Position numbers and translations under genes: made by a program. Below the pieces are notes generated by a model, which saw only the letters and a program-made list of their open reading frames with translations, did no database searches and was not told where the DNA came from. Source: Rhodoferax lacus (GTDB taxonomy: Bacteria; Pseudomonadota; Gammaproteobacteria; Burkholderiales; Burkholderiaceae_C). From it: a stretch of 64,000 nucleotides of DNA. This document shows, piece after piece, positions 50,573-52,705 of the stretch. The stretch covers positions 1 to 64,000 of the forward strand of contig NZ_QFZK01000016.1 in NCBI RefSeq assembly GCF_003415675.1, in the 5' to 3' direction. The stretch's first letter is position 1. Each line of letters opens with the position of its first letter.

Positions 50573-51019
50573 ATGCAAATTGACGTCAAAATTCTGGATC
50601 CGCGCATGAACGACAACCTGCCCGCCTACGCCACACCGGGCAGCGCCGGTCTGGATCTGCGCGCCTGCCTGGACGCACCGCTCACCCTGGAGCCCAACGC
50701 CTGGCAACTGGTGCCCACCGGTATGGCCATTTACCTGGAAGACCCGGGCTTTGCCGCACTCATCCTGCCGCGCTCGGGCTTGGGCCACAAGCATGGCATC
50801 GTGCTCGGCAACTTGGTGGGCCTGATTGACAGCGACTACCAGGGCCAACTGATGGTCAGTGCCTGGAACCGCAGCAGCACCGCCTTCACCATCGAGCCCA
50901 TGGAGCGCATCGCGCAGCTGGTGGTGGTGCCGGTGGTGCAGGCGCAGTTCAAGGTGGTGCAGGAGTTCCCTGCCTCGCAGCGTGGCGAGGGCGGTTACGG
51001 CTCTACCGGAAAAGCCTGA
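50573..51019 (+). CDS. dut: dUTP diphosphatase (trimeric dUTPase)
   Basis: 148 residues from ATG 50573. The five dUTPase motifs are visible, including [51 protein letters not shown] and the C-terminal [11 protein letters not shown] arm. It hydrolyses dUTP to dUMP, keeping uracil out of DNA and feeding dTMP synthesis. An in-frame TTG upstream at 50555 overlaps the coaBC end and was not chosen. Confidence 0.95.
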
Positions 51020-51021
51020 CC

Positions 51022-51555
51022 CTAGTGCAGCGTGTCGCCGTCGGGCAGCTGCTCGTGGTACGGCTGGACGCGAAAAAAGCCGGTGCCGGTCGAGCCGCGG
51101 CCGATTTCCTCTTCGGTGGCTTCGCGCACACCTTCCACGCGCAGGGATAGGCGAATGGCAATGCCGGCCAGCGGGTGGTTGCCGTCCAGCACCACGTGCT
51201 CTGGGTAGATTTCGCTTACCGAATACAGCGCGTCCTTGGGGGCATCGGGGTTGCAGCCTTCGGGCAGGGCAAAGCCCTCTATGGTCTGGCCCACTTCCAG
51301 TTCGGGCGGGAACAGCTCGCGTGGTTCCAAAAACAGCAGCTGGTCATTGAAGTCGCCAAAGCCCTGCTCGGGTTCGATCTGCAGCTGCAGGGTGGAGCCC
51401 GCCGCGTGGCCCATCAGGGCTTCTTCGATGACGGGCAGCAGGTCCTGGCCGCCAATCAAGAATTCCACCGGATCGTCCAGTACGTCCAGTTCTTCGCCCA
51501 AGGTGTCTTTCAGCGTCCATGTGAGGGCAACGACGCATTGTTCAGAAATTTCCAT
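51022..51555 (-). CDS. slpA: FKBP-type peptidyl-prolyl isomerase SlpA-like
   Basis: 177 residues. The SlyD/SlpA pattern is clear: VVALTWTLKDTLGEELDVLD, a FLIGGQDLLPVIEEALMG FKBP core, an inserted IF domain (GFGDFNDQLLFLEP through FALPEGC), and VVLDGNHPLAGIAIRLSLRV. It lacks the His-rich tail of SlyD, so it is closer to SlpA/FkpB. ATG 51555 was chosen. Its -10-like GACAAT ends 6 nt from the start and overlaps the divergent roxA promoter. Confidence 0.9.
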   Translation of the reverse strand: MEISEQCVVALTWTLKDTLGEELDVLDDPVEFLIGGQDLLPVIEEALMGHAAGSTLQLQIEPEQGFGDFNDQLLFLEPRELFPPELEVGQTIEGFALPEGCNPDAPKDALYSVSEIYPEHVVLDGNHPLAGIAIRLSLRVEGVREATEEEIGRGSTGTGFFRVQPYHEQLPDGDTLH

Positions 51556-51557
51556 GC

Positions 51558-51567
51558 AAGAATTGTC
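51558..51567. promoter_or_regulatory. overlapping divergent -10-like boxes of slpA and roxA
   Basis: The decamer AAGAATTGTC holds AAGAAT for the plus strand (51558-51563) and GACAAT for the minus strand (51567-51562). Predicted starts are near 51570 (roxA ATG at 51572) and 51555 (exactly the slpA ATG). Only 16 bp separate the two start codons, so neither mRNA can have a normal leader unless promoters lie inside the opposing genes. Confidence 0.45.
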
Positions 51568-51571
51568 CCAT

Positions 51572-52705
51572 ATGGACATCAATACCCCCCTTCAGCTGCT
51601 TGGCGGCATCTCACCCGAAACCTTTATGCGCCGTTACTGGGAGAAAAAGCCGCTGCTCATCCGCGCGGCCATTCCCGGATTCAAACCCTTGCTGGACCGC
51701 GCCGAGCTGATTGACCTGGCCGCGCAGGACGATGTGGAGTCGCGCCTTGTGGTGTCGGCACAGGCCGACAAAAAAGGCCAGTGGCGCCTGAAGCACGGAC
51801 CCTTTGCCCGCAAGGATTTGCCGCCCTTCAAGCAGGCCGGCTGGACCGTGCTGGTGCAGGGCGTGGACCTGCATGACGAGCGCGTGCACCAGCTCATGAA
51901 CCAGTTCCGCTTTGTGCCCGACGCGCGCCTGGACGATGTGATGATCAGCTATGCGTCAGACACTGGCGGCGTGGGCCCGCACTTTGACAGCTACGACGTG
52001 TTCCTGCTACAGGCCCATGGCCGCAGGCGCTGGCGCATTGGCCGCCAAAAGGACTTGAGTCTGGTGCCCGATATGCCGGTGAAGATACTGGCCAACTTTG
52101 TGCCCGAGCAGGAGTTTGTGCTGGAGCCCGGCGACATGCTCTACCTGCCGCCGCAGTGGGCGCATGATGGCATTGCCGAGGGCGAGTGCATGACCTACTC
52201 CATTGGTTTCCGCTCCCCCGTGAAAGGCGAGATCGCACGCGAGCTTCTGCAATGCCTGGCCGAGCAGGCGGCCGATGATGTGGGCCCGGCCATTTACCGC
52301 GACCCCGAACAGCCAGCAGTCAGCGGCAGCGGCGAAATCCCGGCCGGGCTGCTGCAGTTTGCCAAGGAGGCGCTGGACGCGGCCCTGAAGGACCCGCTGG
52401 CGTTGCAGCGCTCGCTGGGCGAAATCATGACCGAGCCCAAGGCCCATGTTTGGTTCCATGGCAACCAGGAGTTGGAAGAGGGCGTGGGCGTGCGCCTGGA
52501 CCGTCGCACCCGCATGATGTATGACGCCAAGCACGTCTTCATCAACGGCGAAAGTTTCCGGGCAGCGGGCAGCGATGCCAAGCGCATGCGCAAACTTGCG
52601 GACGAGCGTGAGCTCAATGCTGCTGAGGTGAGCAAACTGAGCGAGCCCGCGCGTGAGCTCTTGCTGCAATGGGGCGAGGACGGCTGGCTGTATGGCCTTG
52701 TCTGA
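51572..52705 (+). CDS. roxA: ribosomal protein uL16 arginine hydroxylase-like JmjC/cupin protein (YcfD/RoxA)
   Basis: 377 residues from ATG 51572. The cupin_4/JmjC fold shows the iron ligands His and Asp in GGVGPHFDSYDVFLLQ and the distal His in YLPPQWAHDGIAEGE. RRYWEKKPLLIRAAIPGF is the N-terminal signature, and a C-terminal winged-helix-like dimerisation region follows. The family hydroxylates an arginine of ribosomal protein L16 using 2-oxoglutarate and O2. It is divergent from slpA, and the next gene begins inside its 3' end. Confidence 0.88.
   Translation: MDINTPLQLLGGISPETFMRRYWEKKPLLIRAAIPGFKPLLDRAELIDLAAQDDVESRLVVSAQADKKGQWRLKHGPFARKDLPPFKQAGWTVLVQGVDLHDERVHQLMNQFRFVPDARLDDVMISYASDTGGVGPHFDSYDVFLLQAHGRRRWRIGRQKDLSLVPDMPVKILANFVPEQEFVLEPGDMLYLPPQWAHDGIAEGECMTYSIGFRSPVKGEIARELLQCLAEQAADDVGPAIYRDPEQPAVSGSGEIPAGLLQFAKEALDAALKDPLALQRSLGEIMTEPKAHVWFHGNQELEEGVGVRLDRRTRMMYDAKHVFINGESFRAAGSDAKRMRKLADERELNAAEVSKLSEPARELLLQWGEDGWLYGLV

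Follow-up and report, generated by a model that had tools for sequence, protein, structure and literature searches.

The bidirectional promoters described by Warman, Grainger and colleagues have divergent transcription starts and overlapping -10 elements, and RNA polymerase bound in one orientation excludes the other (PMC10268837, PMC12825309). The starts usually lie 18 bp apart with positions -7 and -11 reciprocally paired (PMC10268837), and separations of 10 and 23 bp are common too (PMC12825309). Basal activity was reported as too low for competition at five tested E. coli bidirectional promoters, where competition can appear once one direction is activated (PMC12825309). Leaderless genes have been mapped by RNA sequencing in relatives of the organism studied here. 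In Burkholderia cenocepacia, 72 genes have their transcription start precisely on the codon and another 42 have it within 10 nt, 24 of these genes encoding tRNAs, and a promoter motif takes the place of the Shine-Dalgarno (SD) sequence directly upstream (PMC4603805). Leaderless messages are given as 4.67% of primary starts in Cupriavidus metallidurans (PMC7563307), and leaderless mRNAs in general are described as being loaded mostly by intact 70S ribosomes (PMC9031893).

The locus analyzed here lies in the window, the whole 64,000-nucleotide stretch of the Rhodoferax lacus contig. The slpA gene on the minus strand and the roxA gene on the plus strand are divergent, and their start codons are separated by exactly 16 bp, as the original prediction held. 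The features of the locus are as follows.

51022–51555, minus strand: slpA, FKBP-type peptidyl-prolyl isomerase of the SlyD/SlpA kind, 177 aa
51553–51555, minus strand: slpA ATG (complement of CAT), from the sequence
51554–51556, plus strand: in-frame upstream ATG for roxA, present in few relatives
51555, minus strand: predicted +1 of slpA, on the A of its start codon, from the position of the -10
51555–51557, plus strand: TGC, extended -10 facing roxA, with its T paired to the A of the slpA start codon
51556–51571, no strand: 16-bp spacer GCAAGAATTGTCCCAT between the start codons, from the sequence
51558–51567, no strand: shared core AAGAATTGTC, common family form GASAATTSTC, from the sequence and relatives
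51558–51563, plus strand: roxA-directed -10, AAGAAT, 8 nt from the roxA ATG
51562–51567, minus strand: slpA-directed -10, GACAAT, 6 nt from the slpA ATG; conserved position -12 to -7
51568–51570, minus strand: TGG, extended -10 for the slpA direction; TGn precedes the -10 in relatives
51570, plus strand: predicted roxA transcription start, 2 nt 5' of the roxA ATG, from the position of the -10
51572–51574, plus strand: roxA ATG, from the sequence
51572–52705, plus strand: roxA, JmjC_2 and ROXA-like winged helix, ribosomal-oxygenase-like, 377 aa
51577–51579, minus strand: in-frame upstream ATG for slpA, within roxA, present in a minority of relatives

The slpA product carries the domain of the SlpA/SlyD proteins, with a score of 22.6 bits against Pfam FKBP_C that narrowly passes the cut-off of 21.1. 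The best NCBIfam model was PRK10737 (58.7 bits versus a cut-off of 174), and PRK15095 scored 32.8 versus 125. The name slpA is used loosely because these equivalog cut-offs are not reached. RoxA/YcfD ribosomal oxygenases hydroxylate ribosomal protein uL16, and like them the roxA product has a JmjC_2 domain (133.5 bits) and a ROXA-like winged helix (ROXA-like_wH, 47.5 bits), each over its cut-off (22); it had no NCBIfam match. The translation contains H-F-D and a later H, which we take to be the pattern expected for this enzyme class. From its domains, the roxA product is likely a ribosome-modifying enzyme. Judged by roxA, the closest named matches of this genome came from uncultured beta-proteobacterial and Comamonadaceae genomes, followed by Curvibacter and Rhodoferax. 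The in-frame upstream ATGs are not general for either gene because, in a 40-locus short-gap set chosen in part by the presence of AATT, they occur in 3/40 for roxA (within 8 codons) and 12/40 for slpA (within 10 codons). In many other Burkholderiales families slpA and roxA are also divergent neighbors, with gaps of tens to several hundred bp.

The best explanation, to which we assign a probability of about 0.78, is that the spacer would be a minimal bidirectional promoter with two facing -10 elements and that both mRNAs would be leaderless or nearly so. Its grounds in sequence, conservation and spacing are observed; from them we infer the starts, polymerase exclusion and leaderless translation. 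The spacer would form a sigma-70-type promoter in which the two -10 elements overlap by 2 bp, each preceded in the window by an upstream TG. RNA polymerase would bind in either orientation but not in both together, an exclusion expected because the hexamers share 2 bp. Such exclusion would not have to couple the two genes strongly, since the basal activity of the five E. coli bidirectional promoters tested is reported as too low for competition (PMC12825309). The slpA transcript would begin with the A of its AUG, the roxA transcript 2 nt before its AUG. Both messages would be translated without an SD sequence, by ribosomes loading on the bare AUG.

The window sequence has the arrangement that this explanation calls for. 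A -10-like hexamer had been proposed for each strand, and both were found, GACAAT on the minus strand, at a position conserved in relatives, and AAGAAT on the plus strand, the two overlapping on opposite strands as in bidirectional promoters. The plus strand reads TGC-AAGAAT at 51555–51563 followed by 6 nt to the predicted +1, and the minus strand reads TGG-GACAAT at 51570–51562 followed by 6 nt to the predicted +1. The -10 elements of leaderless genes lie 5–9 nt from the start codon, and the distances here are 6 nt for slpA and 8 nt for roxA, with no SD sequence before either gene in the window. Starts had been predicted at both start codons; the hexamer positions agree for slpA, whose start falls on the A of its ATG, and shift that of roxA to 2 nt upstream, giving a predicted separation of 15 bp. 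A single palindromic core had also been claimed. The shared core held up, conserved as GASAATTSTC, and the palindrome did not, since AAGAATTGTC self-pairs weakly in the window (3/5 pairs). When the flanking TG/CA (51555–51556 and 51569–51570) is included, the self-complementary positions on each strand are -15T, -14G, -11A, -9A and -8A/-7T, and the positions unpaired between the elements of the two strands are -13, -12 and -10. The roxA-directed AAGAAT matches the consensus at 4/6 positions only and has no accompanying -35, which counts against the best explanation. A consensus scan of 50800–52400 found no full sigma-70 promoter (-35 plus -10), and the aligned slpA upstream regions, shown from -32, contained no conserved -35. 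Facing pairs of this quality occurred at 12/2650 CAT-N10-20-ATG sites in 861 kb of the genome, the site in the window included, and in 1139/200,000 random 16-bp gaps (roughly 0.5%). The window sequence by itself proves little, because chance facing pairs are uncommon yet not decisive; the case exceeds chance because the core is conserved among relatives.

The locus resembles the bidirectional promoters of Warman, Grainger and colleagues in its divergent starts, predicted here, its overlapping -10 elements and the exclusion of one orientation by the other (PMC10268837, PMC12825309). It differs from them in the predicted start separation of 15 bp and the pairing of -7 with -8, although the separations of 18, 10 and 23 bp are usual rather than defining. 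It also differs in that the predicted starts coincide with or adjoin the start codons of two protein-coding genes, and in that loci from several genera retain the shared core. As with leaderless genes of B. cenocepacia and C. metallidurans, the messages are predicted to begin at or near the start codon, and as described for B. cenocepacia (PMC4603805) a promoter motif lies directly upstream instead of an SD sequence; those starts were mapped by RNA sequencing, whereas the two facing slpA/roxA starts are predicted from sequence. Bidirectional promoters and leaderless mRNAs are each already known, and it is their proposed fusion at slpA/roxA that is new. A literature search covering mainly papers free of subscription found neither the combination at one conserved locus nor a paper containing both 'leaderless' and 'ribosomal oxygenase'.

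Conservation was measured from the slpA start codon. The first alignment held 78 distinct loci with genes ≤61 bp apart and 24 more with a wider gap or one gene missing, and the extended set held 169 distinct slpA loci. Collapsing loci >88% alike over 170 nt gave non-redundant sets of 118 close-family and 30 distant-subgroup loci, which omit loci lying too close to an edge and those lacking an ATG where the start was expected. Conservation of the 16-bp spacing had been offered as a check on the original prediction. The gap itself is not kept, ranging from 13 bp to >100 bp among relatives, while the bases adjoining the slpA ATG vary little and the hexamer-to-ATG spacing mostly stays at 6 nt. Information in the 118 loci peaks at -15T, -14G, -11A (0.89), -9A, -8A, -7T (0.80) and -6T, and positions beyond -22 are nearly free. 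A -10-like hexamer is present 3–12 nt before the slpA ATG in 104/118 close-family loci (shifted control windows, 10, 7 and 3), at exactly 6 nt in 84/118, and TGn precedes 96 of the 104. The hexamer is absent from 14/118, and 9 of these 14 have roxA >120 bp away. In the distant subgroup 25/30 loci have the hexamer (19 at 6 nt and 6 at 7 nt; controls 2, 2 and 0), mostly as GATCAT, AACAAT, GATGAT or GACAAT with TG in front in 25/25, and 5/30 lack it. SD-like bases precede slpA in 2/118 close-family and 0/30 distant-subgroup loci, compared with 24% of 591 first-ATG gene calls of this genome. The motif [TG]A[TCG]AAT lies 3–10 nt before the first ATG in 12/591 gene calls (861 kb), versus 3 for the 21 positions at 11–31 nt. 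For slpA, the predicted absence or near absence of a leader gains support from the constant 6-nt distance, the rarity of SD sequences and the drift of the sequence farther upstream.

An earlier short-gap roxA set, chosen in part by AATT and thus biased, was replaced by one in which a gap of ≤20 bp was the sole criterion; its 60 loci became 39 after near copies were removed. A roxA-directed -10-like hexamer lies 6–10 nt before the roxA ATG in 39/39 of these loci (controls 2, 0 and 0) and at exactly 6 nt in 29/39, and TGn precedes it in 9/39. The commonest close-packed form, a 14-bp spacer (18/39), would carry both promoters and replace both leaders. At gaps just above 20 bp a -10 is near the roxA ATG in 3/13 loci and an SD sequence in 7/13, and in this lineage no -10 peak near the roxA ATG appeared among the 107 loci classed as long-gap or other. 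Because wide-gap loci lack this peak, a leaderless roxA is not a feature of the whole lineage to which the window belongs. If these wide-gap relatives use the same core, roxA is predicted to have a leader a few tens of nt long. Across this wider lineage the two promoters would be fused in one core, with roxA leaderless at a short gap and leadered at a wide one. In the distant subgroup a roxA hexamer lies at 3–12 nt in 23/28 loci, 20 of them at 5–7 nt (controls 6, 1 and 3), and most are separate from the slpA hexamer as read from the printed sequences.

The main alternative is that slpA alone uses the core and that roxA transcription starts inside slpA, with AGGAG-like bases near the slpA start serving as the roxA SD sequence where they are present. 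Such bases occur at -16 to -5 of roxA in 13/39 short-gap loci and could act as an SD sequence if transcription began further upstream, and the roxA-directed hexamer of the window is the weaker of the two. AGGAG is not present in the window, however, and it remains beside slpA where roxA is 50–60 bp distant, so it cannot be the roxA SD sequence there. The roxA-directed hexamer also persists where slpA is distant or missing. In genomes with the genes >120 bp apart, or with roxA but no slpA, 17/22 roxA loci (24 minus 2 without a roxA start) keep NASAAT beginning 38–53 nt upstream, a count that does not represent 17 independent cases because several loci are close relatives (Delftia, Comamonas). 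Outside the family a -10 often stands 5–8 nt before roxA, and SD sequences are rare (4/79). Taken together, these observations make a promoter for slpA alone quite improbable.

A single operator for a dimeric regulator of slpA and roxA, in place of a pair of -10 elements, would account for the near or full palindrome GASAATTSTC, which is present in 71/118 close-family loci. The core is conserved across several genera, for example Rhodoferax, Acidovorax, Polaromonas and Curvibacter, and a roxA-directed NANAAT overlaps by 2 bp in 94/101 slpA hexamers of the GACAAT type; in the other 7/101, roxA lies at a distance of 56–69 nt or was not found close to slpA. An operator does not explain why the core mostly keeps a 6-nt distance to the slpA ATG with TGn in front, or why the distant-subgroup hexamer becomes GATCAT or AACAAT and retains -11A, -7T and a distance of 6–7 nt. 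The halves of the core also survive alone in separated genes. Two promoters are preferred over one operator because each half can persist on its own once the genes are well separated. A search of this genome located GASAATTSTC at 4 sites (reversed control, 1), and the site in the window is not among them because its first base differs. From this genome search and the behavior of the halves, the operator was not favored, and we consider it very unlikely. By eye, in printed sequences, GACAAT was seen 6 nt from slpA in 0/15 genomes with separated genes, many of them Delftia and Comamonas. In loci of Delftia, Comamonas, Curvibacter and Paracidovorax, slpA and roxA have moved apart, by as much as 2.9 kb or more.

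That the hexamers are chance AT-rich matches between crowded genes, with the true promoters elsewhere, is scarcely credible: such facing pairs do arise by chance at the rate given above, but conservation over 118 + 30 non-redundant loci with low counts in control windows already makes this unlikely.

If the two-promoter explanation is true, slpA/roxA would be a two-way gene switch of near-minimal size, conserved in nature, and a clean test both of polymerase orientation choice and of leaderless message use. Close packing requires at least 17 changes on a FastTree of 139 roxA proteins, 3 of them forced by well-supported branches. Tight packing was gained or lost more than once, because the tree needs multiple changes.

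Matching roxA genes were found in 121 Burkholderiales genomes, 117 of them outside the family, and 82 were taken, giving 85 loci and, without 3 repeats and 3 loci lacking an ATG, 79. A match of at least 5/6 to TATAAT lies 5–8 nt before the ATG in 35/79 loci from 17/40 other families, and eleven 4-wide control windows gave 0–5. A looser test (4/6 at 3–12 nt) found 45/79 (10-wide controls, 9, 14, 12 and 10) and left 34/79 without a -10-like hexamer. No conserved -35 was present upstream of TATAAT in this set. For slpA in other Burkholderiales families, SD sequences are present in 31/56, and a hexamer is near the ATG in 8/56, not above the controls of 9, 13 and 14. Gammaproteobacteria outside the order gave no leaderless roxA signal, with 7/24 versus controls of 3, 7, 3 and 2 (28 loci, 4 without an ATG). 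As far as its upstream regions tell, roxA looks leaderless in part of the Burkholderiales, a pattern suggesting that many families of one order may have retained leaderless translation of an enzyme that modifies ribosomes. Tight space is not the sole setting of leaderless roxA, because roxA looks leaderless too in other families with a wide gap to slpA. Leaderless roxA appears older than leaderless slpA because in the other families the hexamer is near roxA and slpA is mostly SD-led. Within the order, roxA was probably leaderless first, and slpA probably became so later in this family.

Other genes of this genome have the slpA arrangement. TGNGACAATN6ATG has 8 matches versus 0 for the reversed control, and 7 open long frames, including RimO and RlmD. 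GACAATN6ATG has 32 matches versus 2 for the reversed control, and, of 30 retrieved, 24 open frames 91 codons or longer. Of these 24, 16 were identified or scanned, 2 of them having no family match. In the genome, rimO and rlmD have TGnGACAAT 6 nt before the ATG. They were compared in a selection of 30 genomes, of which 29 belong to the family, and from these 1/30 rimO and 2/30 rlmD were dropped for lack of an ATG. The hexamer is at 6–8 nt in 19/29 usable rimO loci (controls 2, 2, 1 and 1) and at 5–9 nt in 22/28 usable rlmD loci (controls 0, 0, 0 and 0), with no SD sequence in either case. A bolder proposal is that Burkholderiales ribosome-modifying enzymes (RoxA, RimO, RlmD and perhaps RlmI) are made from leaderless mRNAs loaded directly by 70S ribosomes, so that output would track ribosome state, and that slpA/roxA adds a reversible polymerase site setting folding helper versus ribosome oxygenase. 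We regard this as speculative and unlikely; the recurrence of ribosome-modifying enzymes is striking but was noticed post hoc with few genes, and pyrC, hisI, murB, moaA and others are in the same list. One GACAATN6ATG frame is RlmI-like and falls under its curated cut-off. The candidate leaderless set from GACAATN6ATG includes oxyR-like, pyrC, hisI, moaA, murB, oligoribonuclease, selO-like and rlmI-like genes.
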